Below are positions 18,526 to 64,000 of a stretch of 64,000 bases of DNA, piece by piece. The notes below the pieces were generated by a model, which worked only from the letters and a program-made list of their open reading frames with translations, did no database searches and was not told the origin of the DNA. Both the position numbers and the translations under genes were made by a program. This stretch comes from Norana najaformis (lineage: Eukaryota > Annelida > Clitellata > Crassiclitellata > Hormogastridae): NCBI GenBank assembly GCA_964023275.1, contig OZ029921.1, forward strand, positions 16,776,204 through 16,840,203, read 5' to 3'. Position 1 is the first letter of the stretch. Each line of letters begins with the position of its first letter.

Positions 18526-21500
18526 CTGAAAACGTCACAAAATATTCAAGACTTAAATCTGCTTGTCTATATCTCAATTGTTCTCGTGTTTTCTGTAGGT
18601 TTTCCTGTTCATTTTATAGCCGTGTTTCCCAACCAGGTTTCCTTGCAACTCTTGGGTTCTGTAGACCAGTTTGTCAGGGCTATCCCCAAGACATTGTGGA
18701 ATAAATAAAATAAATAATAAATTATGGAATAATAAATAAATAAATAAATTATGAAAGAAAATTCCTTTAAGCACTTTCCATGTCTGCAGGACAAATTCCA
18801 CAGCTAGCATGTGCCAACTGCTTCCCATAATTCTCTGTGTTTCAAGTCTTTTCGATCTTGCTGTAACCAACACAGGCTGTTACAGTCATTTGCTTTTGAT
18901 AGATTTGTGGTCTTTTGTGCAGTTTTGTAATTAGCAATTTTACCAAAACCGTGGTAATTTTCTTGTATCTTTTGAGAAGAATGGTGCAAGCTCATTGGAA
19001 AAACTTCAGCTTTGATACCATGATTTGTGCAAAACGAACCAAGTCAACATTACACTTAAAATAAGATTTATATTGAACTTGGATATGAATGCTGCTTTGA
19101 TAATTAAAGTTAACTTTATCTGCTTTAATAATTTGATATTTGAAAAAAGATTAGAAAATGCAAACAAGCCAAGAAACTGCTTAAACTTTTCCTTACAATG
19201 TCAATTGACATACAATATATTTAGTAGGAACTAAACTGCACACCTGCTTTCAACTTCTTCTGGCCTGTAAACGTTTTTGTAGGTAGGGGTTCATCAGGAT
19301 ATGAACAATTAATTTAGGGGTTCCACCATGGGTAAAAGGTTGGAAAACACCGCTTTATAGAATGGGCAACATATGGCATATGAGGCAGTGCAGAACTCCA
19401 CACATGTCCCTGCCTATTTAATGAACTTTTAAATAGTATTGTTAATATTTTAGCACTGTTTATCTACTGTTTATACTTCATGTTTCAATTTTTACTTATT
19501 TATTTCAAAGTACTATCAAGCTCAAGGCACCAAAAAGCCACTTTTGCGCTGATGTGCCATAAAACCCAATCAATCAATCACTCCTATCAACGCCTGATAA
19601 GAAAATAAGAAATTGGCAGTTCTTTGTTCGTCGCACAACCTATTGGATAACACTATCTGGCAACTGTATGATTGTTGAATGCAGCTGTCCTTCTTGTGAT
19701 TCACCATAAAGACGTGACAACCCATCATCAAACTATGTGATTGCATTCACCACTTTTCACCACTACCTTGCCTTGTCATCACTGACAAGCCCTGTTGCGA
19801 CTACTACACCAAACTGTGCCTTTTACAAGCACTGGCCCCATATTCTAAAATTCTGTAGAATCAGAATTTTTTCTGGACTACAAGCATTTGCACAAGCTCT
19901 ACCAGCAGGCTAGATGATAGCCTTATGGGCTGCTATGAAGGAATCCCCAAAGATAGGAATAGGTCAGATGGCAGAATAAGAGCCAAACTGTTGCGAAATC
20001 AAATCAGAATAGGACCTCAGAAGAAGGTATATTAAATTTGTATCCATACTACACACAAACTATTTTGAATAACTGTCACAAATCTCATTAGAAAATTGTG
20101 AGAACTGACAAAATTACACTGCAGTGATAATCAGTGGATGTTGTTCTTTATGTTGCCTACTTACCGACATCACACCCAGATTCCTATGCTCATTACTGTT
20201 GGCTTGAGCTTGTCTTAACTGCTCTGACTGTATTCAGAATACAAGTATTCATAATGACTCTTCTAAATCTAGAACAGGTCTATTCTCAATCCATAAGGGA
20301 TCACAAAACATAGCCTATAAATATACATTTCACTATATGTTTTACACACATATTCAGCACCAACTGAAGGAAATGCTGAAACCGCAGAAGCAATGCAAAG
20401 GACCAGACAACTTACCCGTCAGTTGTATTACAGACTTCTTCGATCAAGGCTGCGCGTTCTGTACGAGAGGCATGCGACACACATTTCTCCATGACATTGC
20501 TGTTTACAGACAGAAACAGAACAAAATCATACAAGCATTTGACATCAGCCAAGAAATTTCTTTGAAGTGGTACTTCTTAAGTACCTAGTTCAAATGTTTA
20601 ACATTATAAAGTAACCTAGAAACAGACACTTAGACAGCGCATTTATGAAAAACTAGAGTGTTAAAAATGTACTTACTTAGCAGTTCTGAGAAAGAATAAT
20701 GTTTCTGTGCCAATAATCTTTCACCTGATGACTTACAAGTTCTTACACAACAAAACAAAAAATGTTCACTTAGCAACACATGATGCCAAGCATTCACCTT
20801 GCAAATTTATGCTGACTCAAGATGAGGACCTTGTTTTTGACCTGACCGAGAATACGGCTCCTGTCCTCGGCCCGTCCGTGCTCCAGAACATGCTGGATAA
20901 CATAGTTGCCATACTGGTCCATGAGAAGACGCTCTGTTTGCTGGTGAAGTTCCTCAAGGATTGGAGTTGTCTGTTCAGGTGTGCAGTTCTCCAAGATGCG
21001 CTGAATTATTCGACAGCCATATGGATGCGTTGACAAATTCAACACCTACCAGAACATTTATGTAAAGTACTCTAAAAATAATATATGAATTCAACAGATA
21101 AAAAAAGAAAAATAACCTAGTTATCTTACAAATGAAAATGAAATGGTTCGTATTAGGATATCAGGATACTAGCATATCTAAAATATTGATAAACTGAATA
21201 TTATTACCATAATTTGAAACAATAAGTTTAGTTCCACTATTCTCCCTATTTCCATTAACAAACTTTACACAAACTAGAAAAATGATTTGTTAATATACTA
21301 TTATACATTTTAAAACACAAACCTGTCCTTTGAAAGCATCAATTATGAACTGTACGTGAGCAGAATCCACACATTCGATGCATTTCTGAACAACATGATT
21401 GCCATTCTGATCTTTAACACACTTCTGAACATGGCCATCTAATTCCTTGACAATTTCCACCTAAAATCAACACAACCTTCGTCCTTGAAGAAAAAATAGC

Positions 21501-24500
21501 CAAATGCACCCTGCAATAATGTGACGCTGCTTTTACTGGAAATAAATCCAGTTTCTATCATTTAAAAACACAGATTGCTTCAAATAGATAGAGATCACTT
21601 CAAAGTGACTGCATACATGGTCATATTTCGCAAAATGATTTCTTAGAATCATTTTAAGTCTTATGAATGAAAATCACTTTGCAGAAATGATTCTGCACAA
21701 ATGAAATCTTTGATAGGCCACCTATGGCCTCAGATTCAGCATTACAGACACTGCACACTTTATAAGTACCTTAATAAATAAATAAATTGATACTTAGTGT
21801 AAAAGATTTCTAGACCAAAAATAAGATCATATTCCTTGATTCAGTTATACTCTATGCACAAAAATAACATGCCAGTTCAGCATACATGACAAAATATTTA
21901 CTATATATTAATTTGGAATCATATTGTAGAGACAAAACCTTGACAGCAGAAACCATCAGTTGACGGCAGTCACCAATTCGCCTACAATTCCTCACTCAGT
22001 CAATGGACATATGCCATGTTAACAAATGCATTACTTACTTACTTACCAACTGTAAGATAATGTCATCACACATTTTTTATTAAATGCCTCTTTCAACAGC
22101 AGCCTTCAGTTGTCGGGTGGGGTTGAAAAACATCTGGAATGCAAGGGTGAAAGGCAAACCCATTACCATCTGTCACTGTGCCAACGACTTTACCTTGTAG
22201 TTGATAACGTTTACCTGCATTTCTGAAGGAATCGACTCAAGGGCTTTCTGTATGATGCGGCATCCATACATCTGAAGAGCCAAAGGCAAAACGTGACCTC
22301 GGATTCTCTGCGCCAGCATCTGCTTCTGCTCTGAAGTTCCAAACTCAAAGAACTTCTGGATAACGTAGTTCCCAAAGACGTCCGTCATCAGACTGTAGGC
22401 CGACGTCAGTATCTCGTTGAAAACCATAGACTTCTCAGCGGGTGTTGCTCGTTCCAATTTCTGCTGAATAAATCTGGAATAAAAAACAAAATCTTGTTTA
22501 ACAGCTATGTTCCATCCCTTGTTTGATTCTGCATGTGTGTATGCAAGTGTGCATGTGTATGTGTGAATACTGGCTTTGACACTTCCAGTCTTTAGAACCA
22601 TGGCATCACTACAGACAAAAGTAGTTCAACTGGATGCTGGACACAAAGTCATGTAATTTATTTTACGATGCCTTTTGCAGAATTTCTTATGGTTGGTATG
22701 GAAATCTTGGTCACATACAGTGCACAGAGCTGGACCAATCATTATCTCCCTAGTAGCTTTATGGAAAGAGTGACACAAAGTTTACCAGCAGAAGACCCTT
22801 TGCAGGGCTAATCTTCTCTGACTGCTGCATATAAAGCACAAAGGATGCAATAAATAAGAACAAAAAGTTCAGCTTCTGAAAACAACCTTTCATTACTATC
22901 CAGTAACTTCAATCTATTCAACTGATTCTTTATTATTCACCCAAGCCAACAATACCAGTCAGCACAAAAACACATCTGATCACCTTACGACAGAAACCAA
23001 CTCTTATTTGATGCAACTGAAAATTCATTTTCCAAACCAATCTTGGTTAGAGGTATGATCTTAGTCAGCACACTCTGCTGGGCTAAGGAAGAACAGAACA
23101 ATTCTAGAGTAGAGTAAAGGCAGATTATGGACCAACCAAGGGGTCCTACCAACTGAACTATGACTATGCATAGGAGAGGTTTTGTTGTATGAGTTGCAAC
23201 TGTTTTTATACCTAGATCCATGCTGGTCCTGCGAAAATTCAACGATATGTCCAACCAAATCCTTCAGCTGGAGATTCGGAACTTGGTTGTTACGAAAATC
23301 TTCCAAGAGCTGGCTGCGACCGGCTGCTTCCTTTGAAGGTGGCATCCTGAAACAGCCAGAAAACAAATTTGTCATTGAAGTATGTGGCACAAAAACACGA
23401 AACAAGTAGATCCTAGACCTAGAATGAATCACTGGATAAAATTAAAGTGAAGCCAAAAAATTTCTTGTTGCCTAGTGCTTGTTATTCATTCATGCCACAG
23501 CATCATCATCCCGCTGGTCAAGGATGGTCACTGTTCCAGAAAGAAGGTCACTGGACCATCTGTTTGGAATCCTTCAGGAATCAACTAAAAACTGTAGTAT
23601 TCTTTCAAGCATAACCACATGGCAGGGTGAACCTGAAATGCCTACCACTGAGTATTTGAAAAGACCTGTCAAGAACTGAGATGAAGTTAAACCAGGAAAC
23701 AGGTAGCATGACAAGAAAGGGAGAAGAAATGCAGTTTGAGCAAGGATAGAAAGATCAACTGCCTAAGAACTCAGGATATGTTAAGGAACAGTCTTTGGAG
23801 AGAGATTTACAAGAAACTATCAATGCATAATGTAATAAGTCAACCTTTTACAGAAGACACAACATGAAAAATATCTCTGCTTACCCTTTCATAAAGGCTG
23901 GGGGTCGAGGATTAAGCAGTGACTGAACTAGCAGGCCATTTGTGACTGCAACTGGGTTACTACGAAACTTGTTTTCTGCACCAGGAGCTGACGAATACAG
24001 GCGCCCTCCACTAGCAAGTCCAAGACCTAATGCAATTAATAAGTGGTTAAATACACAAACAATATTTTTTGTTAAGTAAGTAAGCAAGCATGAAAATCAG
24101 GTTACTATTAGCAGTAACCCATAAAACTGTCAATAAATCAATCCATATAAAACAAGACTAATTCTAGTAAGAAAGATAATCATATCAACTAGGAGTCATT
24201 TGTATGCAAAGGTACAATAAATTTTCTTCATGACATAATAAAGAAACACAAAAAATGATCAATATAAGATTTAGAGCTAACCTTGTTATTTTGACAAGAC
24301 TATTTCCTACCTGCTAATGGATTATTAGATGCTGCTGCTGACAGGATGGGAGGTGGAGTAAGTGACTGGCTCTGAGTGGCCACATACCCCATTGGGTTGT
24401 TTGGAGACATGGCTGCTGCTGCCACCGTTCCATAATACTGGCCAAATGGACGGGGTTTGTAGTCAACACCACCAAAGAGGTCCCGGCCGATGTGCGATAC

Positions 24501-30500: not shown

Positions 30501-33500
30501 GTCCCTGCTGGCCAGCCACAGCTGCAGCCACTGCTGCCATTGGCATGCCACTAAAGGGATGACTACAAACAAGAAGTACAGAATATGCATCACATTACGT
30601 ACCACTGGTATCACAAATATCATTTAAAGAACATCATGTATTTATCTACAAAAGAATGCAGAAGAAGAATGCAGAGTACACGTGACATTTCCAAGTAATC
30701 TGTGTATCATACTAAAATGTGGATTCATGATTCATGCACAAATGGACTGCAAATCTGAGGGCTCTATACAACTCTAAAAACATGTAAATTAAGAGTCAGA
30801 AGTGTTCCACTTAGCAGATAGATGGACCACTGTGACTATTCCTGTATGACATTACAATACAGAGCTGGTATGATTATAATATATTGCTGCGACTTGATAA
30901 TTTGAATGCCTCAAAATGTAAACATTAAACTTTCATCTGCTAACCCTTTCTTTGTCCAAGAAATAGGACCAGTAGTATAGAACTTGTTGCCTCTGGCTTT
31001 TTTCCAAAATCTAAATAGACTTATGCTGAGATTTCTTATGGACTTATTTATAAAATTTCATAACAGATGTTTCACTTTGTTAAAACCCCAAGCAATTAAA
31101 TCACTGAAATTAAATAAATTATGATTATAGTACTGTATATAAGACGCAGTTTTTTACACGAACTTCTAGGGGTGTGTCTTATTTAACGGTGCAACTTATG
31201 TGCGGAAATTTTACACATTTTTTTAAGTAGCTGAGTATAGTCGGCAAAGACCGATAACGATTAAAATTAAATTAAATTATATCACATTTATCAAACGCAA
31301 ACAGAGGCCTACATAGTGAAAGCAGGAACAGGCTTGCAGACGGCGATAGAGTTCGCAGTGCCCCTTGGCTGATAGCCTGCCTTGTCTTGTGCCCTCTGCC
31401 TCTGCTGTGACCTCCACCTCTGCTGCGTCCTGTGACCCTCCACCTCTGCTGTGTCCAATGACCTACACTCTGCATGCGACCTCCTACGGCGGGCCCAAGA
31501 GAAGCGCAGGACGCCCTGCTAAGCCTACTTGGCGCCTTTCTTGGAAAGGGCGACAAAAGAAGGGGTCAGGAAGCTGCACTTGGCTGCACTGGGGCTTTGA
31601 GAAGGCTGAAAAATTTGCTGGTATTTATTCTTCCATCTATATACTACTGTCTTACTGCAATTCAATATATCATCATTGGATGCCTTCAGCTGGCTGTATT
31701 TACTTAAAGAACCAAGTAATTATTATCAAACTACCAATAACAACAAATGTTGAAAATCTTTAATTCATAAGTGCAAAAATAATTTTATTTCAACAAAGTT
31801 GTCTGAGCAGTTATTTGCTAATGATGACCACGTATTTACGGCCATCATTAGCAAATGCGCTTATATGCATTGTGACTGGAAATCTGTGTATGGTTGCATT
31901 TTATATACCAGTGCAATCTATGTATTGATTTTACAAAAATTTTGCCATTTTTTGTGTCACTGCGTCTTATACTAAGGTACAACTTATAGTACGGTAGTCC
32001 TTAATAATAAACAATCCATTGTAGAAATCTGCTGTACATAAACTCTTTCTAGCAATTTCAAAAAGTGCCACTATAAGCATCTAGTTGTGCAAATAGTTTC
32101 AACACAATGAATAAACCTGTTGTGCAGCAATTTAAAACTCACTAAAACAAGTTTTGGCATCAAACTAAGTAAACATACATAGTATCTGAAGCTCTTCTTT
32201 ACACGTTACCTCAGTGTTGCACCCGGCTGAATGATGCCATTCTGAATATCATCCTTGCCAGGAATTGGTTTAGCTTCTCCCTCGAACTGTGTACAATCAG
32301 CAGGCACATTTTCTCCTCGCATTTTATCAGCTTCACTTCCAAGCTGTTGAAAATCAACTCTAACTTAATACAGACATCAGTTTATCAGTTTCACTTTCAA
32401 GGCAGAAGTGGTTAGCAAGCAGTGCAATTAAGTAATTAGAAGATCAGTCCCTTGTGCTAACCCCAAGAGCAGCCATGGGTCTGAAGTGTTGTTAATGACT
32501 TCATTTTTCTTAGCCTCAGCATATGAGGGCAGTTGGCCAGTCCTCTTCCTCACTATCCAATCTCCCACCAAAAGTGCATAAATAAAATAATAATAATCCA
32601 AGGACTTTTATAGCGCCACTGCAATAATGCTCAAGGCATCAGTCGATAGACGGTTGTTAAAAAGCAAAGTAGTTGTGCATACCAAATTCCAGTGTAAGCC
32701 CGGTCAAAAGCCAAGAGCAAAATCCAAGAAGACACAGATACAGCCTATGGAGGAAATGAGTCCAGGAAAAAAATGGGTATTTAGTCAAGGCCTAGAGGCC
32801 AACACAAATTCTGCAGAGTGTATGTTTGCCAAAAACAAGTTCCAGAGTCTGGGAGCAGCAACGGAAAAGGCACACTCACCCAGAGCTATGCTTGTCCTCG
32901 GTATGACAAGAGTTAGATAGTCAGAGGACCTGGTCGAGTAGTTACAGGTCTTGGGAGTCAGCATGAGACAAAGATAATGAGGTAGGCTAAAATGTAGAAC
33001 CTTGTACACAAATAGCCCAGCCTTTAAAATCATTCTCTTTTCTGTGGGTAGCTTGTGCAGCGATTTTAGGAGTGAAGAAAAGCGCTGATAATTTGAAGTT
33101 TTAGTGATGGTCCTGCCCAAGGTGTTTGAACCCTTTGAAGTTTGAAATGCCAACAAAAAGTGAGTTACAATAGTCATGACAGCTGGACACCACGACATTG
33201 GCAAGACAAACCAAGGCAGAAAAAGGAATGTGGCATCTAAGTCTTCGAATGTCACGAATGTAATAGTGGGCTGATCTACATACTGAATTGATGTGTTAAT
33301 GGAAGGATAGGTCAGAATCAACTACAACAGTTAAATTACAAGCTGAACAGCTGTGCTATATAACAGAATTCTGTTCAGTTGCTGCATAGTTCCAAAAAAA
33401 TTAGGAATTCAGTTTTGGATAGATTTAAGAGCAGTCCATTTTCTGCCATCCAGGACTGCACATGGTGAAAGACCTCACCTAACAATTAAGCTGATAATTT

Positions 33501-43675: not shown

Positions 43676-45329
43676 AAAAACATAGGCATTAATAAAGTCT
43701 TCATTCTTTTGGAATCAAAAAAGTTTTAATTCAATATCATATCCATTATAATATCAAATTTACATGAAGCTATGCCGTTAACTAGAACATGATGTCATTT
43801 TGCTGAATGTCGACTCAACAGTCCTACTTAATATATCGTCAGTGTGTATCACGCACAACGCACAGATACCATAGATATAATAACACTGGATACAGCATAC
43901 AGCCCGATTTCTATGCTATGCGGTGAAGCCGACATCTCTCTATGTTAATGACGTCATGGGGGGCAGAAAGCTGAGCTTTACACGGTAGTGATGGGCGCTG
44001 TAGAGGAAAGTTGAACGTTGTTTATCGGAACCAAATTCGTTACTTGGAGCATAAATTTTTGCAAAATGACTAAATCTGTGAGATGAAAGAATAAGGTCAA
44101 GTCCCCGTTGCGTACATTTGCCCTCACTTTGCATGTTCATTCAGCAAAGGCCTGCGAATATGCGAGGAAAACTTTTAAGACATGGCTCCCAGACCAAAAT
44201 ACATTGACGCGTTGGTTTAGCAGTATGAAAGTCCAACCTGGTTTCATAAAGCGGACTTCAAAATGCCAGCAACAGGACAATAATGAAATTTTCTGTGGTC
44301 TTCTAATGGACGAAAAGTCTGTACGGAAACATGTTAAATGGGATGGTCACAGATCATATGGATTTGTTGATTATGGAACTGGTTTTGATGATGTCTGCGC
44401 TGGAGTTGCTAAGGAAGCTTTTCTTCTGATGCTGGTTGCTGTCAATAGACGCTAGAAATTACCAGTTGGATATTTAACTCTTGGCCTATGTGCTAAGGAG
44501 AAAGCAAACATGATTAATTAAAACCTATCATCAAATCTGTTGATGTTGAAAATTTTGGGTTTGCAGACCTGTTTAATGTCCATAATATGAAGACTTGGTT
44601 CCCTCATCCAGGCAATGATCAACCAATTAATTTGATTATTGATTCTTATGTTGATGTCAGGGTTCACCATATCAGAAGCACAGAAATAATTCAACTCCAA
44701 AGGACCCCAGGTTGAAACAGTTTCACAAAACTTATCCTTTTTAAGTTCATTAAAGTAGGTTCATTAAATCAGGCATAAGTTCAACTACATAAGTAGACTT
44801 GGTGAACAATGGTTTTCTACATCATTGCAATAAAGATGCATAAGTCCAGTTATATTTCATTTACTAAAAAATTATTTTTTTAAGATACAGTTAATTTTGT
44901 ATATCATCTCATGAGCGCAAATAAATGATTTATATGCTGAAAAGTACAGAGATATAAATAGGGCTACAGTGACTGCACGGTTCCAGCATTCCATGAGCAA
45001 CGTCATATGTAAGACATCTGACATAGGTTATTTGAAGCATATGTTACAATGTTACCATAATTCCATATCATATGCAGGAAATATGAAGCTTGTCTGGGAA
45101 TATTGTTGTATGGCTACATATGTCCTACATGTAATATATGATGCTGCATGCCGATTTGACACAAATTCATAATTTAAAAAATCATATTATTAAAATTAGT
45201 TTATTATATGGGAATAGTACCATATGGGCCCAAATAGGTTGTCCATGCCTATGGCAGGGCAAATAAAAAATTCACAACTTTATGAAAATCACTGTAATAT
45301 AAACTTTGCTGTAGACACTTAATTCTTTC

Positions 45330-46290
45330 TATTCATTTTCACCATTCCACCTTCAAATCTCTCGTGCCCGAACTCACCTAAAACTGGATTCCTACTTGTT
45401 GGCCTACACGACCACCTCAAGAAATTCCTGATCCTTCAGTCTCCCTCAGCCTGGATTCTGCTTCCACCCACACCGTTAACACTAACTCTCCTGTCTGCAA
45501 TATAGGTGTAATATTCTACCAACACCTCACCTTTTCTGATCATAACACCCATCTTCCCATTCTTACTTTATGCATATCCGTGACCTTTGCAGAATGTAAA
45601 TGGTATTTGTAAGTCATCATACATGTATATTCGTGACATGCCCAGAATTAGGCATTATGTCCCTATGTCTTCCAGAATATCCTTAGCTAACGCACTGGTC
45701 TCCAGTCGCCTTGACTATTGTAGCTCAATTCTTGTTGGTATCACTACAAGTCAAACATGCAGATACTCCAAAGAGTTCAGAACTCCTTGGCTAGAGCCAT
45801 AACAAATACTTCAAAATATAAGCATATAACCCGTGTGCTTAAATCTTTGCATTGGCTTCCTGTTCAGCAAAGGATCTCAAATTAGGACTTACAGTCTATA
45901 AAACATTGAACTACGGCCAACCACATTACTTAAAATCAGTTCTTATTCCCCAGACTTACCATTACTCTGCAAGGTCATCTGATAGTCTTTCTCTGGTCAT
46001 ACCTTGGACTAGAACTGTTCTGGGTAAATGAGCATTTTCGGTTGGTGGACCAAAATTCTGGGACTCCCTCCCTGTGTCTGTTCATTCTGCTCAGTCGCTT
46101 CTACCATTTCGTTCTCAATTTAAAACTTGCCTGTTTCAAATTGCTTATCCACCATAGATTGCCTCTCTGTCTTGCAGACTGACCTTCTGGATATCGACCT
46201 GATTGTGGCTTGGTTTTGGTGTGCCATCGGTTGATGCCTTGTGCATTAGACACTGGCGCATTAGAAGTTGCTAATTGTTATTATTAATTC
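45330..46290 (+). mobile_element. CR1-like LINE 3' part inside the P-like element
   Basis: ORF2 pieces GVIFYQHLTFSDH, GICKSSYMYIRDMPRIRHY and SSRLDYCSSILVGITTSQ, then tail sequence parallel to 6.83-7.48 kb. The 3' end is near 46.29 kb. Several frame breaks. Confidence 0.75.
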
Positions 46291-46299
46291 GTCCAAAGT

Positions 46300-46860
46300 T
46301 TGACTTCAAAACTGCATGTCTACCAATTGCCACATCCACATTCCATGCAAAACTAGACTACTGCAATTCACTTTTCCTCACTAGAGTAACCACTCAAATA
46401 AACCGCCTTCAAGCTATCCAAAATGCTCTTGCTCGTGCTGTCACCTAAACTTCCAAACCCTACCACATCACTCCTCAAATCATGTCACTGGCTTAAAAAT
46501 ACAGTACCTGAACGCACAGTATAAAGTGCTGTTGCTTACCTAAAAGTCTAAAACACAATTCAATTTTCCCAACCCTCAGGACTATTTTCATCAGTTATTT
46601 ACAATCCAACCACTCTGTTCAACCCGATCCTCTTCTGTCCTAAAATTTCTTCCCCCGTGGCTTCGTCCTTAAAATTTGGAAATTGCTATATAGCCGTAGC
46701 TGCTCCACTCCTCTGGCATAAACTCCCGCCAGAATTACGACAATTAACTGATCCATCATACTAGCTCACCAACACTTCATCTCTGGCAATTTCTGGATTG
46801 GTCTTTCACTCAAAACTGAAAACATTACTTTTCCAAAAATCCTATCCTGACTCTGATACC
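46300..46860 (+). mobile_element. Second LINE 3' fragment inside the P-like element
   Basis: Encodes HAKLDYCNSLFLTRVTTQIN and RLQAIQNALARAVT, then a degraded C-terminus. A TCTG microsatellite (46860-46995) follows. Its 3' half is repeated at 63260-63600 in the deleted transposon copy. Confidence 0.7.
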
Positions 46861-46911
46861 CTCTGTCTGTCTGTCTGCCTGCCTGCCTGTCTGCCTGCCT
46901 GCCTGCCTGCC

Positions 46912-46978
<67 letters not shown>

Positions 46979-46995
46979 ATGTCTGTCTGTCTACT
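46860..46995 (+). repeat. (TCTG)n with CCTG variants
   Basis: About 34 tetranucleotide units. The corresponding run in the second transposon copy (63600-63776) is longer. Confidence 0.95.
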
Positions 46996-47325
46996 CCAAT
47001 CCGAAACATCTTCCACCTAACTGTTTACCCGCCCGGCTCATGGATCTGACAATTCTAGTTGTATATTTTTATTATAATTTTAAAAGCCTCATTATGGTCA
47101 TTTTCCGCGATTAGCCAAAACATATTGCATTATTAAACTTATCCGTTAAAATATTTGTGTACATAAATGTCTCTGTAAAGACGATTCACAAACACGAACT
47201 TGCAGTTCTTTCATGCATTTCTACCGTACACGACTGCTTTCTGCCCCCATGACGTCACTGACTAGAATTAGATGTTGGCTACACAAATCTGGTCGTATGC
47301 TGTATCCAGTGTTATTATATCTATG

Positions 47326-47850
47326 GTCCTTTCAACAGGCTTGAGTACAACGAGGTAATAGAAGAACTAGAGAAAGTGCTGCCGTGTATTGGGCTTACGG
47401 CGGCTGTAGCTGCCGGAAGTGACGTATCACCAGGCTAGCTGGTAGACGGTCAGCTGCCAACAGTGCATCTGCCGATGCAATTAGGATGTGGAATCTGGCC
47501 AAATTTATAACAAAAATAGGTTTTACCTTTGTCTCCAGCCCTATTGAATTTTGCTTGTTATTTCTAACTCATCTGTTGGACGCTAATTTTGTGTTTTCGT
47601 TACGCAGGAGGAATAATTAAGCCTCACGTTGACATGTCGTCCGGCGCTCCTGTGCGTCAAAAAGCGAAAATCAAAATCAAATCCCGACGTTAGAAATGCA
47701 AAACGCGACAATAAAAGTTAAAAACGCCGCGAGAAAAATCAAAACGTGGATAAAAATTAGAAACTAGGCAAAGTAGCTAAATATTGTCCGTGATCAACTT
47801 TTTACAATTTTTATTGCCTTCCGGTAAATAGGAAAGAAGTGGCTAAAAAT
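47326..47850. other. Spacer between the P-like element and the purine tract
   Basis: A CG-moderate stretch (47330-47480) then AT-rich sequence. A short frame after tacgcag near 47.61 kb (MSSGAPVRQKAKIKIKS) has no support. Confidence 0.4.
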
Positions 47851-47852
47851 TG

Positions 47853-48113
47853 AGGAGGAGGAGGAGGAAGAGGAGAAGAAGGAGGAGGAGGAAGAAGAGG
47901 AGGAGGAGGAAAAGGAGGAGAAGGAGGAGGAAGAAGAGGAAGAGGAGGAGGAGGAAAAGGAGGAGAAGGAGGAACAGGAGGAAAAGGAGGAGAAGGAGGA
48001 AAAGGAGGAGAAGGAGGAAAAGGAGGAAAAGGAGAAGGAGGAAAAGGAGAAGGAGGAAAAGGAGGAGAAGGAGGAGGAGGAGGAGGAGAAGATGAGGAGG
48101 AGGAGGAGGAGGA
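47853..48113 (+). repeat. Polypurine (GGA/GAA) tract
   Basis: About 260 bp are almost entirely purine on the plus strand, built of GGA, GAA and GGAGAA runs. It lies about 320 bp before the ATG of the split gene. Such tracts can form triplex DNA. The Lys/Arg or Ser runs encoded here are artefacts of composition. Confidence 0.9.
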
Positions 48114-48285
48114 CGTTGAGTAGAAGCGGAAGCAGAAGAAAAGCAGTCTCTAAAAACTTAAATCGCATCTGTTTACGGATCAGTGATTCTGAATTCAAAC
48201 AGCTTTACATAAGCAAATACATTAATTAATTAATAACGCAGCGATTAATTTAGCGGTTTAAAATATTTTCGCGGCAGTGACGAAA

Positions 48286-48314
48286 TGACGTCATTTTCGC
48301 GACTGATTACGTCA
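48286..48314. promoter_or_regulatory. CRE/ATF-type sites upstream of the split gene
   Basis: A full palindromic TGACGTCA at 48286-48293 and a second site TTACGTCA at 48307-48314 lie 115-145 bp before the ATG at 48430. The surroundings are CG-richer than the neighbouring DNA. CREB/ATF and bZIP factors bind such sites. That they control this gene is inference. Confidence 0.4.
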
Positions 48315-48429
48315 TCTCCTTTGTTGGTTCGGCCTTCTTGTTGAGAGAGCTTTTGGCTAGATTGTTCGATTGCGATTTTCTAGGCGATTTTTTGGCGAAT
48401 TTGTGAATTGTTAAATTGTCTGTTCAGCG

Positions 48430-51400
48430 TTGTTGGTGATGTTTCGACGGCTGTTCGGTCGCTGGTTCGGTTGTCTGCTCGAGACGCTGTTTGGGATGCC
48501 GGTTGCGCAGGGAGGAGAGGTTGACGTGGAGGCTGCGACGCCCCCGGGAGCTGCCGAAGAAGATCCCGTCCAGGTAGTAGCCCCTCAGATTTTCTATCCA
48601 GGCCCCCGTGATGCGAACATGCGGGGCATTCTTTTTGTGTGTAACGGGCAGAGGGTCCTCATTGACAGTCAGGGCGAATCGAGGACCGTGTGTGAAATCG
48701 TCGATGACCGGTCAGGGTTGACGAACCGGTCATCAGGTGACGGTCACCGCGGTTCGATTCCCTGTCCTCTGTTCGATGACCGAGTTGAGTCAGATCGTGT
48801 CAGAGATGTTGAAACACCCGCTGGTCCGCTTCGGAATATGTCCTTATTCAGCTTTCTTAAGAACCCCACACATGATGAGACAAATAGATCGACGCCCTGT
48901 ACTGACGAAACAGCTGTCAAAGTATGTGAGGAGGTCTCACACGAAGACACGGGTGATTGTAATCAGTGGTGTATTCGGGGGTATACGCGGGTATACGGCG
49001 TATACCTACCTCTTACTCTTAGGAGTGGCGTATGCTCACCTCCAGAAAGTGAAATTTATTAGGATATACGCGGGTATACGCTACTGGAGGTCCAGATTAA
49101 TGCGGGCCGCGACAGCGCACTAGGAAAAGCACCAGGTTAAACTTGCTTCGAAATAAAATTCACAAACACGTATCATCTGCGGCTCACCTAGCTGCTTGTG
49201 AAACACGAAAAAACAAACAGGAAAAGTTGCTAGAACAGCAGCTAGCTAAGCATGCAGTAAGAAGTGATCGCTGCACAGAAACTGTGTTTCGTACTGCCTA
49301 CTACCTAGCCAAGTGCAATCGACCATTCACAGGCCACGAAACAATAATTGATCATTCACAGGCCACGAAACAATAATTGATCTGCAACAACTGAATGGCG
49401 TGGATTTAGGGGTTATCCTGCACTCTCGTTTTACTGGGACCAACTTTATCAATCATATTGCCAGTGAAATGAGGAAGAGAATCGTAGCAGACTTAGTTTC
49501 ATCGTCTTCCAAACTGTCAGTTCTAATTGACGAATCGACAACATTGAGTCACAAGTCAGTGATTGTCGTTTTAATTAAGGTAAGCGTAAACAGTGGTGAT
49601 CCCATTTTTATCTTTCTTGACTTAGTTGACCTAGACAGTCAGGCCTCAGAGTTCGTAGCTGCTCAGCTGGTGAAATGTTTAAAAAGCACTGGTTTCCCGG
49701 AAGAGTACCTTCAGAAGAATTGGATCTCGTTTGTCAGTGATGGTGCAAGTGTAATGGTTGGGAAGAAGTCGGGGATCGCTACTAGACTTCGTGCCTTGTA
49801 TCCTTCATTTCTCTCTTGGCACTGCATGAATCACCGCATAGAGCTGGCTGTTGCAGACGCTATAAAAGACGAGTCAGCTGTCAACCACTTCAAGTGCTTT
49901 CTGGATTTTCTTCAAGTACAGTCTGTTCAGTCAGTCAAACAAGAATCAGCGTGCACTGAGTGAAGCCTGTAAAGAACTGGAGGTCCAGTTTCTGCACATC
50001 GGCCGCATCCTAGATATGCGTTGGGTTGCCAGCAGTTTGCGCACCGTTCGAGCCATTTGGACTTGTTACAATGCGTTGTTCAAAATGTTCACAGCAGCAT
50101 CTAATCCTGACAATCATAACCAACAAACCAGAACGAAAATGAAGGAATTGGCAAACAAATTACGCAGTGTTTAATTCGTGAACGACATCAGTTTGATGTA
50201 TGACATCCTGCAGGAGTTGTCTTTACTTAGCTTGTCACTTCAGAAAAAACTCGATGACATTAGATCAAGCAGATCGACTTGTAAAACGCACCGTTTGTGT
50301 CATATCTTCATACAAAGACAATCCAGGTGAGCACACAGCTGAAGCTGTGGATGCTGTCGACCGAAAGGAGTTCCACGGCGTAGCACTAAGTAATCACCCG
50401 AAGCTGGTTTCAATCAACAAGCAACAATTCATTCAGAGCGTTGTGGATAACTTGCGTAAACGACTCTGTGACCCAAACCCTGCAGATGCACAAATATTGG
50501 CTGACAGTCTGATTCTAGATGTTCAGACATGGCCGCAGGAACCAGACGTGCGTTATGGAGAGAAAGAAATCCGTCGCTTGTGTCGTCGTTTAAACTTAGA
50601 TGCCCAAGAAGCAGTTGGCGGAATGCGTGACTTCATTGAAGACAACAGTGCAATTCCCGATGCACTAAAAAGTCTAAGCAGCTGCCTAAAAACATTGCCT
50701 TGCAGTACAGCTGAATGCGAGCGCGGTTTTAGTCTGATGAACATCATCTCAACTGACCTTCGATCAACTCTGTTGGTGCCAAATATTGCAAGCTTGATGT
50801 TTGTGAACTTGAATGGGTCACCACTAAATCTCTGGAAACCAGAACCTTACGTCACATCATGGTTACAGTCTCATCGATCTGGGACCGATGCACAGTCAAA
50901 GAAGCGACGCAGTCGTGATTCTGCAGAACTGGATGAACGACGTAGTCTGTGGGAACTTTTGTAGTCTGTCTGCTGATATCTGTTATCTGACTGACCTTTA
51001 AACTTAAAAGTATGCAATCTGTTAATAATCTCTTTGTCACTTTAATAAAAGGGAGGGAGAAAAGGGGAGGGGAGGCCTAGGGAGGGAGGGGCATGTCGGG
51101 AGGGGAAGGCGTATACCCACCTTTATTTTTACCAATACACCACTGATTGTAATGGGGATGGACTGACGGATGAATGCGATTTTGACACTGATCCCTGTTC
51201 TGGCGAAGTAACACCAGTCGAAGTTCGTGAGGAGGTATCGCCCTGTACTGACGAAACAGCTGTCAAAGTACGTGAGGAGGTCTCACACGAAGGCGGGGAT
51301 GACTGTGACGTGGATGAAAGTGAATCTCATCCCGATCCTGACCAGACGTTGTTGAAAGTGCGTGAGGAGGGGAGCCACGAAGACAGAGCTGGTCATGAAG

Positions 51401-52233
51401 ATGATGACACGGGAGTCCCTCTTGTGGGTCAGCCATATGCCCCAGTTCAAGCTGATTCACTGCGCACTCTTGTCCATGATGCCAGTGATCAGCGGTTCCC
51501 AGACCCTGCTCACCCACATGGTATTTTTGAAAGGGACACAAGTCACACCCTTGTCAACTGGTCTGGCAAGTCAACATCAGTCAGGTCTGTCACGCGAGGC
51601 ACTGACGATGATCGATTGACTTTGATCAGAGGGGAGGATGACGGCGACAGAAATGTCAATCCCGCTCGTCAGGCAAACGTGCATTGCAAAACCGTCGTGG
51701 GTGTCCATCATTACGATCTCTCTGACCGTGCTCCCTATCGAGGGATTCCGAAAAGGGCCCCTGTCCGGCCCACTGTTCACTGGGCTGAGGAACTGAGGGA
51801 GGTGCGGGTGTTTGAGAAAGGCGCTGAGGAAGACCTGGAAGTTCTGTTTGTGGAAACTGATCATGACACTGAGGAAAGGGTTGCTGATGAGAGACGGAGA
51901 GGCAGAGAAAGAGAGGTTGAAGGGGAAGATCTCTTGACTGGTAACACCCATTATGCACGCCACTTTCGCCGCCGTTACCGCTACCACCTCCTCACCTACC
52001 GTCACTACTTTACCCGTTGCGAAGACTCTGCCACTCTGGACAACTACAACCACTACCTACTCTACCTCCGCTACCACCGCTTTCACTTCTATGACTGCTT
52101 CCACCACCTGTACCCTGAGGACTACAAGCACTTTCACGTCTACTTCTACCACTTCTGCCACTTCAACGCCTATCTTGCTGACCACGCCAGGAGGGGCATT
52201 CCAACACCTTCCATGCCCAGGCCCCGGGGGTAA
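48430..52233 (+). CDS. Novel single-exon gene split by a hAT transposon
   Basis: Two open segments, 48430-48963 and 51154-52233, are in the same frame once the hAT element and one 8-bp target duplication are removed. The ancestral frame is 537 codons. N-terminus: MFRRLFGRWFGCLLETLFGM, basic and amphipathic. Middle: acidic units resembling DETAVKVREEVSHE-G-DDC occur before and after the insertion, which supports the join. C-terminal: RPTVHWAEELREVRVFEKGA, then an Arg/Glu-rich helix and a His/Tyr/Phe/Arg-rich tail (HYARHFRRRYRYHLL onward). A partial second copy at 62.35 kb conserves the VHW and RHYY/F-x-RC segments mainly through third-position changes, so this frame was coding. I do not recognise the family. 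The PTVHW motif loosely resembles a PP1 RVxF docking motif (inference). The present allele is probably disrupted unless the element is spliced out. Confidence 0.6.
48964..51145 (+). mobile_element. hAT transposon, KIAA1586-like
   Basis: A 2182-bp element with perfect 12-bp terminal repeats CAGTGGTGTATT / AATACACCACTG, flanked by identical 8-bp duplications ATTGTAAT (48956-48963 and 51146-51153). Both are hAT hallmarks. Transposase parts on the plus strand: an N-terminal piece about 49140-49320; VLIDESTTLSHKS, FVSDGASVMVGKKSG and LSWHCMNHRIELA (49400-49960); and the C-terminal dimerisation region with STAECERGFSLMN and LNLWKPEPYV (50240-50960). The protein type is that of the hAT-derived KIAA1586/ZNF862 group. 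A 29-bp tandem duplication (49324-49381) shifts the frame, a second break lies near 49.93 kb, and a stop lies near 50.17 kb. It is therefore probably no longer autonomous, though the perfect ends imply a recent insertion. Confidence 0.92.
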
Positions 52234-52721
52234 ATCTCAGAACCTACTTGGATGCAGGCGGCTCCAGATGAGTCCATTTCCGAAGCAATTTGGAAGCTTC
52301 GCTTTTTCAAATTTTTAATTTTTCTCTAAATTGTTCGTTGTTAGCCGTTAGCGTTTTTGCGTTTGTTTGTCGAGTTATATTTTTTTTTAAATTTAAAAAA
52401 AAAAAAAAAAAGTTGAAAGTTTAAATTTTTTATGTATTTCGCGTTTGAAGAGTTTTTGAATTTCGTAATTATTGTAGCGCTTAGAATTTTCAATGTTGAT
52501 TGTAGTTTTTGCATTTTGGAGTTCTCGTATTTTTTGACAAATTATTCGTTTCCCGTTTTCTAACTTAACTTAAGCGTGTTCTATTTTGCATTTTTCCGTA
52601 TAAATTTGTCTGGAGCTGCTGATTTTTTACCTGTCTTATTACTATGTGGTTGTATTCTGATTTAAGTTCACGCCTGAGTTGTTTTTATTCATTTTCTGAA
52701 TATAAGGCGTAAATTCGTTTT

Positions 52722-55042
52722 GCCAGAGAGAGAACTTGCCAGTGGAAAAAGAATCTACCGCGAATCTGAGAAAGAGAGAAACTTGCCAGTGGAAAATGAA
52801 TCTACCGGCGAATCTGAGAGAACTTGCCAGTGGAAAAACAGTCTACCAGCGAATCTGAGAGACAGAGAGAACTTGCCAGTGGAAAAAGAATCTACCGGCG
52901 AATCTGAGAGAACTTGCCAGTGGAAAAAGTATATAACGGCGAATCTGAGAGAGAGAGAACTTGCAAGTGGAAAAAGAATCTACCGGCGAATCTGAGAGAG
53001 AGAAACTTGCCAGTGGAAAAAGAATCTACCGGCGAATCTGAGAGAACTTGCCAGTGGAAAAAGTATATAACGGCGAATCTGAGAGAGAGAGAACTTGCAA
53101 GTGGAAAAAGAATCTACCGGCGAATCTGAGAGAGAGAAACTTGCCAGTGGAAAAAGAATCTACCGGCGAATCTGAGAGAACTTGCCAGTGGAAAAAGTAT
53201 ATAACGGCGAATCTGAGAAAGAGAGAACTTACCAGTGGAAAATGAATCTACCGGCGAATCTGAGAGAACTTGCCAGTGGAAAAACAGTCTACCAGCGAAT
53301 CTGAGAGAGAGAGAACTTGCATGTGGAAAAATAATCTACCGGCGAATCTGAGAGAGAGAAACTTGCCAGTGGAAAAAGAATCTACCGGCGAATCTGAGAG
53401 AGAGAGAACTTGCCAGTGGAAAAAGAATCTACCGGCGAATCTGAGAGAGAGAACTTGCAAGTGGAAAAATAATCTACCGGCGAATCTGAGAGCCAGAGAG
53501 AAACTTGCCAGTGGAAAAAGAATCTACAGGCGAATCTGAGAGAGAGAAACTTGCCAGTGGAAAAAGAATCTACCGGCGAATCTGAGAGAGAGAAACTTGC
53601 ATGTGGAAAAAGAATCTACCGGCGAATCTGAGAGAGAGAGAGAGAACTTGCATGTGGAAAAAGAATCTACCGGCGAATCTGACAGAGAGAGAGAACTTGC
53701 CAGTGGAAAAATAATCTACCGGCGAATCTGAGAGAGAGAAACTTGCCAGTGGAAAAAGAATCTACCGGCGAATCTGAGAGAGAGAGAACTTGCCAGTGGA
53801 AAAAGAATCTACCGGCGAATCTGAGAGAGAGAAACTTGCCAGTGGAAAAAGAATCTACCAGCGAATCTGAGAGAGAGAAACTTGCCAGTGGAAAAAGAAT
53901 CTACAGGCGAATCTGAGAGAGAGAGAGAGAGAACTTGCAAGTGGAAAAAGAATCTACCGGCGAATCTGAGAGAGAGAACTTGGCAGTGGAAAAAGAATCT
54001 ACCGGCGAATCTGAGAGAACTTGCCAGTGGAAAAAGTATATAACGGCGAATCTGAGAAAGAGAGAACTTACCAGTGGAAAATGAATCTACCGGCGAATCT
54101 GAGAGAGAGAAACTTGCACGTGGAAAAAGAATCTACCGGCGAATCTGAGAGAGAGAGAGAACTTGCATGTGGAAAAAGAATCTACCGGCGAATCTGACAG
54201 AGAGAGAGAGAACTTGCAAGTGGAAAAATAATCTACCGGCGAATCTGAGAGAGAGAAACTTGCCAGTGGAAAAAGAATCTACCGGCGAATCTGAGAGAGA
54301 GAGAACTTGCTAGTGGAAAAAGAATCTACCAGCGAATCTGAGAGAGAGAACTTGCAAGTGGAAAAATAATCTACCGGCGAATCTGAGAGCCAGAGAGAAA
54401 CTTGCCAGTGGAAAAAGAATCTACAGGCGAATCTGAGAGAGAGAAACTTGCCAGTGGAAAAAGAATCTACCGGCGAATCTGACAGAGAGAAACTTGCATG
54501 TGGAAAAAGAATCTACCGGCGAATCTGAGAGAGAGAGAGAGAACTTGCCAGTGGAAAAAGTATATAACGGCGAATCTGAGAAAGAGAGAACTTACCAGTG
54601 GAAAATGAATCTACCGGCGAATCTGAGAGAGAGAAACTTGCCAGTGGAAAAAGAATCTACCGGCGAATCTGAGAGAGAGAGAACTTGCCAGTGGAAAAAG
54701 AATCTACCGGCGAATCTGAGAGAGAGAAACTTGCCAGTGGAAAAAGAATCTACCGGCGAATCTGAGAGAGAGAAACTTGCCAGTGGAAAAAGAATCTACC
54801 GGCGAATCTGACAGAGAGAGAACTTGCAAGTGGAAAAATAATCTACCGGCGAATCTGAGAGAGAGAACTTGGCAGTGGAAAAAGAATCTACCGGCGAATC
54901 TGAGAAAGAGAGAACTTGCAAGTGGAAAAATAATCTACCGGCGAATCTGAGAGAGAGAGAGAACTTGGCAGTGGAAAAAGAATCTACCGGCGAATCTGTG
55001 AGAGAGAGAACTTGGAAGTGGAAAAAGAATCTACCGGCGAAT

Positions 55043-55079
<37 letters not shown>

Positions 55080-55265
55080 TTGCCAGTGGAAAAACTCTAC
55101 CGGCGAATCTGAGAGCCAGAGAGAAACTTGGAAGTGGAAAAAGACTCTACCGGCGAATCTGAGACAGTGAGAGAAACTTGCCTGTGGTAAAAGCATCTAC
55201 CGGCGAATCGGTGAGAGAAAAGCTTGCCGGTGGAAAAGAATCTAGTGGCGAATCTGAAGGAGAGA
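52722..55265 (+). repeat. Minisatellite, ~45-bp unit, ~55 copies
   Basis: The core aacttgccagtggaaaaaga + atctaccggcgaatctgaga is followed by a variable (GA)n. Variants (catgtgg, caagtgg, tatataacgg, accagcgaatc) recur in blocks, indicating higher-order duplication. Some frames stay open and yield peptides such as LPVEKESTGESER, but there is no start context, splice site or domain. It is read as non-coding satellite. Confidence 0.95.
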
Positions 55266-55309
55266 GAGAGAGGAAAATTTACCAGTATAAAGAGATACTG
55301 CTATAGCAG

Positions 55310-55790
55310 CTATTTTAATCAGAATCAGAATTTCGGAGTTGGCAGCTTTTTTCAGTGTCTGATTTTTGGGAATAACAGCTATTTTATTCAGAATCTGATT
55401 TTTGGGAATAGTAGCTATTTTATTCAGAATCTGATTTTTGGGAATAGCAGCTATTTTATTCAGATTCTGATTTTTGGGAATAGCAGCTATTTTATTCAGA
55501 TTCTGATTTTTTGGAATAGCACCTATTTTATTCAGATTCTGATTTTGGGGATAGCAGCTGCTTTAATCATAATCTGATTTTGGGGTTAGCAGATGTTTCA
55601 TTCAGAATATGATTTGGGGATAGCAGCTGCTTTAATCATAACCTGATTTTGGGGTTAGCAGATGTTTCAGTCAGATTATGATTTGGGGATAGCAGCTGCT
55701 TTAATCATTATCTGATTTTGGGGTTAGCAGATGTTTCAGTCAGATTATGATTTGGGGATAGCAGTTGCTATAATCATAATCTGATTTTTT
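55310..55790 (+). repeat. Two adjoining tandem arrays (~36 bp and ~61 bp)
   Basis: First part: units with gggaatagcagctattttat and tcagattctgatttt, about six copies. Second part: ~61-bp units alternating gggttagcagatgtttca and ggggatagcagctgcttta, about three and a half copies. The two unit types share the tagcag-ctgattt motif, so one probably arose from the other. Confidence 0.9.
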
Positions 55791-56129
55791 GAGGGGTCGG
55801 CATTTCACTGACATCTGGCTGTTTGAAAATAACACAGCTCTTTTGGTGGTTATTTTAAATTTAAATTTTAATGGCCTTTTGGTCGCATTTGACTCTTTAT
55901 CTTTATGTGTAACATCTGTTTGACTACAATATGAATACCTGAACTTTAGAGGATGTTTAATTAATATGCCTATAACTGGGTCTTCTGGAACGATGAGCAT
56001 GATGAATATGAATTCATCTGATGATTTCTTCTGCCGAAAAGAAGCCCAAAATCAAAAATCTCCAGAAACGAACCGCCATCTGCTAAAATAAACTCATCCG
56101 GCTGAAAGGAATTTCCGTAAAGCGAAACG

Positions 56130-56310
56130 TACGAACGACACCTGAAAAGAACTTCGGCTGTTAAAAAGAAATTTATCTTTTGAAAAGAACTTCGGCATTT
56201 AAAAAGGAACTTCTCTTCTGAAAAGAACTTCTGCTGTTAAAAAGAAATTTCTCTTGAAAAGTACTTCGGGTGGTAAACAGAACTGCCGGTGGTGAAGAAC
56301 TGCGGGTGGT
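56130..56310 (+). repeat. Degenerate ~40-bp repeat
   Basis: Three to four copies of gaaaagaacttcggctgtta followed by aaaagaaatttctc, decreasing in similarity. Beyond it to 56.45 kb nothing is recognised. Confidence 0.7.
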
Positions 56311-56486
56311 GAAACTTGAAATGTCCGTCACCAAATGAGAGAAAAAGTGAGAAATTTCCTCACCTCACCTTAACTTTTACCCACTTTACCTTATCTTACT
56401 TATCAACGCCTTATTCTCCATCCGTTCTGCGTATGTTGCTATTTCTACACAGTCCTACATACATACAAACATGTATACATATGTAA

Positions 56487-56730
56487 AGACAGACAGACAG
56501 ACACACACACACACAGGCAGTCATGCATCAACGGACGTGGAAATTCAATCACTTCGACTTTTGACGGATCTTTCTCTGTGTGTGTGTCTCTCTCTCTCTC
56601 TCTCGCTTATATCTCTCTCTGTCTCTTTCTCTTCTCTCTGTCTCTCTGTCTCTCTCTTTCTCTGTTTCTCTCTGTCTCTGTCTGTCTGTCTGTCTCTCTC
56701 TCACTCACTCTCTCTCTCTCCTTCTGGCTG
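56487..56730 (+). repeat. Simple repeats: (GACA)n, (AC)n, (TC)n
   Basis: Consecutive microsatellites. The Ser/Leu-rich translations are compositional. Confidence 0.85.
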
Positions 56731-57369
56731 GAATTAATCGCTCCTATGACGGATCGCTAGTTTTAAACTCACGGAGTGCTTCAGTGGGGGAAAATAAGAT
56801 AACTTTGCCTAATTTTATCTCTGATAATCTCTACCTAAATAGGTGCCTTGCTGTGCGATAAACTATACGTTCGTCCATTGATATAAACTGATTTGATTCA
56901 ATGCCAGGCTTTCAACCGATGGAGGCCACTGTTTGAGGAAATCAAAACTATGGGCCTGCCTAAATAACGCCGCTGAAGGTGAAAAATCACTGCCCTGAAA
57001 AGAATTTGCCAACGGTGAGAAGAAATTGCTCACTCCGCTGAAAGAGGAAACTTACCAGTGATGGTAATGGAATTCCGACCCGTGCATCCTATTTCATTCC
57101 AGCAATCAAAACCCCTCTTAACTAAAGAAGAAAACGAGATCAAAGGTAGAATCGACTTCCTGTTTCAACCTAAAGGTCTGCCTCTTTCCCATTAATATGA
57201 TTCTTCTTTCATCTCTCTGCCTCTGCCTCTGTCTCTATCTTCTTTCCTCCTTCTATCCCTCTTTCCTTCCCTTCTTTCCTGCCTCTGTGCCTCCCTGTTT
57301 GCCTGCCTCCCTCCCTCTGCTTCCCTCCTTCCCTCCCTCGTCTCTGAACCGGAGACCTACTAGATTTCA

Positions 57370-57445: not shown

Positions 57446-57493
57446 GGCCAGTGGCCGGGTTTATTAAGTTCTTTATTGTCAAGCCATTACAGT

Positions 57494-58250
57494 GTAATGT
57501 AACCTAAGCATGTAATGTAACCCAAGCATGTAATGTAACCCAAGCATGTAATGTAACCCAAGCATGTAATGTAACCTAAGCATGTAATGTAACCCAAGCA
57601 TGTAATGTAACCTAAGCATGTAATGTAACCCAAGATGTAATGTAACCTAAGCATGTAATGTAACCTAAGCATGCAATGTAACCTAAGCATGTAATGTAAC
57701 CCAAGCATGTAATGTAACCCAAGCATGTAATGTAACCCAAGCATGCAATGTAACCTAAGTATGTAATGTAACCTAAGCATGCAATGTAACCTAAGCATGT
57801 AATGTAACCCAAGAATGTAATGTAACCCAAGCATGTAATGTAACCTAAGCATGTAATGTAACCTAAGCATGCAATGTAACCTAAGCATGCAATGTAACCC
57901 AAGCATGTAATGTAACCTAAGCATGTAATGCAACCCAAGAATGTAATGTAACCCAAGCATGTAATGTAACCTAAGCATGTAATGTAACCTAAGCATGTAA
58001 TGTAACCTAAGCATGTAATGTAACCTAAGCATGTAATGTAACCTAAGCATGTAATGTAACCTAAGCATGCAATGTAACCCAAGCATGTAATGTAACCTAA
58101 GCATGTAATGCAACCCAAGAATGTAATGTAACCCAAGCATGTAATGTAACCTAAGCATGTAATGTAACCCAAGCATGTAATGTAACCTAAGCATGTAATG
58201 TAACCTAAGCATGCAATGTAACCTAAGCATGTAATGTAACCTAAGCATGC
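57494..58250 (+). repeat. 18-bp satellite, ~42 copies
   Basis: The unit taatgtaacctaagcatg has few variants (ccta/ccca, gtaatg/gcaatg). 18 is a multiple of three, so minus-strand frames stay open for 220-250 codons (YITCLG, LHYMLR). There is no other sign of a gene. Confidence 0.97.
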
Positions 58251-62129: not shown

Positions 62130-62335
62130 TCCTACCCCAAACATCACCCACCGTAGCTGCCACGCTGTCTCTCCGTGTGACTTTTGGATCTCGACCTGGA
62201 ACCGAACCCCTTTTGCCTATCGATTTTGTTTTGACTGAGCGCATGTGAATAAGCTGGTCACCGCGGCGCGGCTTTCGTTGGGCGCTGTAGAAATCCCGGA
62301 ATTACGATTACGATTACGACCGTGATCGTAATCGT
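62130..62335 (+). mobile_element. SINE-like family B copy with GATTAC tail
   Basis: Best preserved copy, from caaacatcacccaccgtagc to gggcgctgtagaaatcccgg, followed by (attacg)n and an inverted (gatcgtaatcgtaat) extension. It lies immediately upstream of the partial gene copy at 62345. Confidence 0.72.
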
Positions 62336-62344
62336 AATTCTTAA

Positions 62345-62640
62345 ACAGGCCAAGGTTCGTCCCACTGTTCACTGGGTTGAGAATTTATTGAAGGTTCGGG
62401 TGTTTGAAAAAGGCGCTGATGAAGACCTTGACATCATCGTTGTGGCCAATAAACTTGACAGTGAGGTTGGTTTTGGTGACGAAAGACAGAGAGGGGCATA
62501 GAAAACGATGATGGCCGGGAAGATCCTCTGACGGTTGATCCTGATTATACTCGACGCTACCACCGCCGTTCTAACCGCCATCGCATTAACTTCCGTCATT
62601 ATTACGCCCGTTGCGACAACTGTTATTTACCTGTCTTATT
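62345..62640 (+). pseudogene. Partial degraded copy of the split gene
   Basis: Encodes RPTVHWVENLLKVRVFEKGA, then DEDLD, matching the intact-frame residues of the gene at 48.4-52.2 kb. After an in-frame TAG and a frameshift near 62.50 kb it continues with DPDYTRRYHRRSNRHR and FRHYYARCDN. The downstream TTACCTGTCTTATTA also occurs at about 52.63 kb. The copy therefore includes the 3' flank but lacks about 0.6 kb of the original. No N-terminal part is seen. The changes relative to the main copy are mostly at third codon positions. Confidence 0.75.
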
Positions 62641-62893
62641 ATTGATATTATTGATGGTAGGTACCCCGTGGTATAGTACGTAGATCAGAATCATTAAATA
62701 TCCAATTAAATTCTAATTTATATTAGAATATTGAAAATAAGTAATCTTATTGAATAATTCATCATCATCATCTTCTTCATCATCACCATCGTCATCATCA
62801 CCATCGTCATCGTCGTCAATCGTCTTTTCAGTTCATGTTCATATTATTATTATTTCGGTATTTGATATTAATGCAACTGAACGAGCAGTGGTG

Positions 62894-62990: not shown

Positions 62991-63162
62991 ATTCTTCGAA
63001 CTATTGTCCGAAATTTATTCAAATTTTAGCCTTAAAATTAAAAAATTTAAAAGAAATTACAAGTGACTAATTTTAACTTGCCAGATGGCGCATTCAAACA
63101 ATTTAAATTTATTCCGAATTTACTTCGTCTATGGCTGCCATAGATATAATAACACTGGATAC

Positions 63163-64000
<838 letters not shown>

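Follow-up and report, generated by a model that had tools for sequence, protein, structure and literature searches.

In the window analysed here, a stretch of DNA of 64,000 nucleotides, a transposable element lies within an open frame, which raises the question of whether the interrupted frame is a gene and, if so, what kind of protein it specifies. The interrupted frame is a protein-coding gene that has been under purifying selection in the past. As for its product, we tentatively favour, at somewhat less than an even chance and from sequence features, a mostly disordered protein of a once-selected animal gene, whose acidic repeats were entered by a hAT element and whose conserved box would dock on protein phosphatase 1 (PP1).

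Table 1. Positions of the interrupted gene, the inserted element and the second copy within the window.
Feature	Position	Strand	Remarks
Left part of interrupted gene	48439..48963	+	175 codons from first ATG; ends with the 8-base left target copy
Left acidic repeat copy	48893..48960	+	DETAVKVCEEVSHE; 68 nt, 91% identical to 51239-51306
Left target-site duplication	48956..48963	.	ATTGTAAT; 8 bp, flanks the element
hAT transposon	48964..51145	+	2182 bp; terminal inverted repeats CAGTGGTGTATT inwards at both ends, 12/12 identical
Broken transposase, several frames	49101..50961	+	pieces joined by eye; 29-bp tandem duplication, two further frame changes, one stop
Right target-site duplication	51146..51153	.	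ATTGTAAT; 8 bp, perfect copy of left
Right part of gene	51146..52233	+	acidic repeats, middle region, box and tail, through TAA stop (52231-52233)
Right acidic repeat copy	51239..51306	+	DETAVKVREEVSHE; pairs with 48893-48960
Conserved box	51763..51834	+	VRPTVHWAEELREVRVFEKGAEED; 24 residues; TVHW 51772-51783, PhiPhi pair VF 51808-51813
Tail	51937..52230	+	98 aa, Tyr/His/Arg/Phe-rich (15 Y, 14 H, 13 R, 9 F)
3' flank stretch of first copy	52626..52641	+	TTTACCTGTCTTATTA; 16-nt exact match to second copy 62626-62641
Second copy, decayed	62307..62641	+	box 62352-62498 in one frame, tail start 62492-62620 in another; 5' limit uncertain

An open frame cut by a hAT element

Pumilio repeats were identified in a minus-strand frame at 22176-22625 (Pfam PUF, E 5e-28), and the frames at 18288-18545 and 20797-21045, together with others to about 30.6 kb, are, by eye, presumably exons of the same animal-like Pumilio gene. 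Because the Pumilio frame and the neighbouring exon-like frames resemble animal Pumilio, the window, which is eukaryote DNA, is read as animal, and the interrupted gene very probably belongs to an animal. As well, the window carries an interspersed repeat pair (46517-47217 and 63257-64000) that is 93% identical over 745 columns and has TCTG arrays inside, an 18-bp tandem array of 42 copies at 57493-58249 that is open in two minus-strand frames, and a 178-aa open frame on the minus strand (32788-33321), which we take to resemble the terminal part of a LINE reverse transcriptase and for which Pfam gave nothing at E up to 1.

When the element and one 8-bp target copy are removed, a continuous frame is left at 48439-52233, as the first-pass annotation had proposed, although it comprises 535 codons including the stop and not the 537 given there. 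Its longest open stretch of 534 codons far exceeds those of 300 first-order Markov shuffles (median 105, maximum 228), and in such shuffles the left part alone, open for 175 codons, stands against a maximum of 174, and the right part alone, open for 361 codons, against a maximum of 240. The GC content at codon positions 1, 2 and 3 is.634/.474/.537 in the left part and.655/.414/.536 in the right part, with phase and pattern alike in both halves, and the resulting spreads of.16 and.24 are larger than in any of the 46 control stretches (mean.055, maximum.118), each of which was 999 nt long while the left part of the gene has only 525 nt. Together with the perfect target duplication and the codon-shaped divergence of the second copy described below, this coding frame bears out the earlier view of a gene cut in frame by a transposon.

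The interrupting sequence resembles hAT transposons in its 8-bp duplication, which is of the kind made by hAT elements, in its short terminal inverted repeats and in its matches to DUF659 (16.9 bits, cut-off 34.7) and to the hAT dimerisation domain Dimer_Tnp_hAT (16.6 bits, cut-off 21.4), which are weak, lie below the Pfam cut-offs and were obtained only for 49352-49960 and 50197-50961 among the transposase pieces. Unlike in intact hAT transposons, the transposase is apparently broken: at least four lesions were counted in 1861 nt, by eye and without a reference transposase, whereas no lesion is present in the gene across 1605 nt. At the transposase rate, 3.4 lesions would be expected in the gene, and the Poisson chance of none is.03; therefore, the element may have moved in trans, recently and when it was already dead, or else the gene may still be maintained. 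The age of the element, which had been called young, is thus supported indirectly, by the perfect duplication, the perfect 12-nt repeats and this contrast in lesions.

Translation from the first ATG on this allele yields 207 aa and stops before the box, after 32 residues encoded by the element, and no Met occurs in the right part ahead of residue 355 of 360. Because of this early stop and the late Met, neither box nor tail is produced without removal of the element by splicing, and the allele read here should be null for the function of the box unless such splicing occurs. The insertion of a transposon is in itself ordinary.

Upstream of the ATG, TGACGTCA at 48286 and TTACGTCA at 48307 (48286..48314, plus strand) match a consensus that we take to be CRE-like, and they were identified by consensus match only, TGACGTCA being present six times in the window. 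Three of these TGACGTCA sites (43949, 47250 and 63242) fall one in each copy of an interspersed repeat (43868-43971, 47236-47327 and 63161-63255), and those at 7784, 8175 and 48286 fall outside the repeat copies. A purine-rich GGA/GAG tract at 47852-48113 ends about 170 bases 5' of the CRE-like sites. On the 3' side of the gene, a large minisatellite extends over 52725-55054, in which a 46-bp unit is repeated about 50 times, and further copies are found to 55271. A SINE or tRNA origin, suggested by GGTTCGATTCC at 48751, was set aside, since this was a single match that was equalled in 10 of 100 shuffles and no tRNA was found.

A second copy and the record of selection

The second copy was matched by blastn over 62337-62616 (E 9e-27), and it is called decayed because its box and the start of its tail lie in different frames and a stop is present; VRPTVHW and VRVFEKGA are retained, and so is the start of the tail, with similar residue types. 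For the codon comparison, the two copies were aligned manually and ungapped over 82 codons (49 of them in one frame and 33 in another), giving a pS of.49, a pN of.26 and a pN/pS of 0.53 (Fisher on rounded counts, p.0019). A ratio as low as this was reached in only 19 of 2000 neutral simulations, while the same columns read in the other two phases gave 1.14 and 1.08, and the divergence between the copies is thus of the codon type that had been claimed at first sight. The living gene was probably more constrained than this ratio shows, because part of the divergence was neutral once the second copy was dead.

Identical residues number 42 of the 82 pairs, and the longest identical runs are VRPTVHW (seven) and VRVFEKGA (eight); among 20000 shuffles of the 49-codon part, 489 had a longest run of at least eight plus a second run of at least six. 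Beyond the coding region, the 16-nt ungapped match in the 3' flank was reached in none of 400 shuffles and in none of 66 other stretches of the window, suggesting that the duplication probably took in flanking sequence and that the latter half of the second copy's tail was lost afterwards. A gapped alignment of the 3' end of the second copy with the 3' flank of the first was not above shuffles (1092/2000). Upstream of the second copy's box the alignment was likewise no better than shuffles (258/1000), so that the 5' limit of this copy is uncertain.

Layout of the protein and a candidate PP1 dock

The acidic repeats, the box and the Arg/His/Tyr/Phe-rich tail of the first description are all present in the translation of the frame, and the acidic units were recovered on both sides of the element as the two copies of Table 1, with C in the left copy where the right copy has R. 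The N-terminus fared otherwise: it had been described as amphipathic, and the hydrophobic moment of its first 18 residues was equalled in 13.6% of 5000 shuffles. C is the last base of 63 of the 98 tail codons, compared with 61 of 262 in the remainder of the right part, and the tail therefore probably arose from a pyrimidine-rich triplet tract. In a single-sequence AlphaFold model of the right part, the mean pLDDT is 34.6 and no residue reaches 70; helices are placed in the tail and over 238-249, and two strands within 143-161, all with low confidence. The model lends docking no support, and its quality is insufficient for a comparison of folds.

An RVxF-type stretch is the grip by which many regulators hold PP1, and PP1 partners determine what PP1 dephosphorylates. 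In the box, V-H-W is followed after eight residues by VF, while the residues preceding V are P and T and not K or R. According to PMC12723162, the docking consensus is [KR][KR][VI]x[FW], followed some 6 to 8 residues later by a PhiPhi pair, and in Leishmania PNUTS V and W were shown by mutation to be PP1 anchors (PMC10731240). The same arrangement is seen in human PNUTS (PDB 4moy/4mp0), whose TVTW-PEEGKLRE-YF combines T-V-x-W with an 8-residue gap, matching the box. A version of the pattern with K or R at the position ahead of V, or one before it, was absent from the right part, and so was a tighter form, written after the sequence had been seen, with two basic residues within five before V. 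The loose RVxF plus PhiPhi pattern occurred in 682 of 5000 shuffles of the protein's own residues, and a further loose match is present in the left part (RGILFVCNGQRVLI), which we do not propose as a dock. The suggestion that PTVHW is an RVxF-type PP1 dock is thus favoured by the PNUTS spacing and by the V-H-W-x-E-E shared with a PP1-targeting peptide and weakened by the frequency of the motif in shuffles, and docking of the box on PP1 falls, to our judgement, slightly on the doubtful side.

If the box does dock, V and W of TVHW would enter the RVxF pocket of PP1, the chain would continue for eight residues after W, and V-F would then fill the PhiPhi site in the fashion of PNUTS, while the choice of substrate or location may fall to the acidic repeats and to the Arg/His/Tyr/Phe tail. 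The hAT element, probably incapable of producing transposase on landing, entered the acidic repeat region. With a real dock, this gene would add one more PP1 regulator, and the allele would be a ready-made natural null for testing its role; with no dock, what remains is a gene that has been selected and has no family assigned to it, accompanied by a second copy and carrying an insertion that is open to relative dating.

Regarding family membership, searches of Pfam at E up to 10 with box, repeat, N-terminal and tail pieces gave nothing except DUF5946 in the tail (E 4.3), and both halves of the gene were without a match of any kind at E up to 1. No credible family was found in NCBIfam or PHROGs, in each of which the left part had one match (E.06 and.39, respectively), and the PDB sequences yielded weak, unrelated proteins only (best E.09 to 1.2). 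There was no usable match in Rfam and no hit in a tRNA search. In viral contigs, the right part, the left part and the box profile gave 2, 13 and 41 pattern matches, and in prokaryote genomes the box profile gave 78, with no relative by tblastn in either collection; a literature search with four peptide strings from the protein returned no papers. The earlier statement that no known family can be assigned thus holds for Pfam, NCBIfam, PHROGs and PDB, but the family, viral and prokaryote collections searched hold no animal genomes or proteomes and say little on novelty.

Alternative readings and comparison with known PP1 regulators

That the frame is open by chance, or is a pseudogene without recent function, is scarcely credible: the tail DNA is compositionally simple, as its C-ending codons show, and neither AATAAA nor ATTAAA, the canonical poly(A) signals looked for, occurs downstream in 52234-53000, but the open length lies far beyond every shuffle, the coding phase is kept on both sides of the element, and the second copy carries a purifying signature. 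It is improbable, though less so, that the frame belongs to another mobile element as its coding portion, or is a fragment captured from a gene, with the copies as genomic debris. Two copies within 64 kb, one of them decayed, and surroundings rich in repeats speak for such an origin; against it, simple or tandem repeats, judged from coordinates or letters, are involved in each of the longest 25 among the 89 inverted pairs of 46000-56800, no target duplication of at least 8 nt surrounds the 3' A-run, the frame matched no family of transposases, reverse transcriptases or viruses, and no relative was found in viral contigs. A retrocopy was rejected, since no duplication was found upstream of the 17-A run at 52395-52411, the best match there being 7 nt. 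A real gene without a PP1 role, in which the box was kept for another contact and the tail is a basic, His-rich binder of nucleic acid or membrane, is quite possible, if short of even. The evidence for coding and selection is independent of any docking model, the docking motif is frequent by chance, no credible family emerged from the libraries tried, and the residue composition of the tail would suit such a binder, but the conserved blocks coincide with the RVxF and PhiPhi positions at the PNUTS gap, and V-H-W-x-E-E agrees with the PP1-targeting peptide.

Very improbable, in turn, is a divergent PPP1R15, that is, a GADD34/CReP-like regulator of eIF2 dephosphorylation with an N-terminal membrane segment, acidic repeats, an RVxF core and an Arg-rich end. 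The order of these parts, from the N-terminal segment through the acidic repeats and the RVxF-type box to the Arg-rich end, resembles that of PPP1R15A/GADD34 and PPP1R15B/CReP (PMC10998612 and PMC4394352), and the CRE-like sites upstream would fit as well. However, in its 70-residue core PPP1R15B has Arg at F+15 and Trp at F+19 (R658 and W662; PMC4394352), where both residues are E here; no Trp occurs in the translation downstream of the box, and the eIF2-gamma-binding FLKAW-type motif of the PPP1R15A repeats, F[LI]xx[WF], is absent from the left and right parts. Besides, neither the Pfam searches with box pieces nor the PDB searches gave a PPP1R15 match at E up to 10, libraries in which the presence of PPP1R15 is unconfirmed, and the amphipathicity of the N-terminus is not above shuffles. 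With neither the core Arg and Trp nor the FLKAW-type motif present, and with no match to a profile or a solved core, the protein is by these features not a PPP1R15 member. By analogy, it may nevertheless work in a PPP1R15-like way, as a PP1 adaptor that is disordered.

Our preferred reading, a mostly disordered protein with a PP1-docking box, finds its closest comparison in PNUTS (PPP1R10), which resembles the box in the Thr before Val, the T-V-x-W core, the acidic residues after W and a hydrophobic pair after exactly eight residues. PNUTS differs in having K and T before V, where the box has P and T, in its F at W+12, where the box has K, and in its Arg at W+19, which is absent here; the PNUTS positions are F411, F413 and R420 (PMC4394352). 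Moreover, no Arg is present between W+9 and W+25 of the box, while PNUTS, spinophilin and PPP1R15B each have one. Membership in PNUTS was therefore rejected, the VxW and PhiPhi spacing being present but the 4mp0-type contacts of Phe +12 and Arg +19 absent. The PP1-targeting peptide version 3 (PDB 8sw6), which by its name and sequence is an engineered PNUTS derivative, reads V-H-W-P-E-E where the box reads V-H-W-A-E-E, so that V-H-W-x-E-E is common to both, although a phmmer search of the PDB sequences with the native 24-residue box gave no chain at E up to 10, this peptide included. A wider claim, which we consider unlikely, is that the gene represents an undescribed animal family of PP1 regulators, knocked out recently by a hAT element in one allele, in which a PNUTS-like VxW-PhiPhi dock would be combined with acidic repeats and a singular His/Tyr/Phe/Arg tail.
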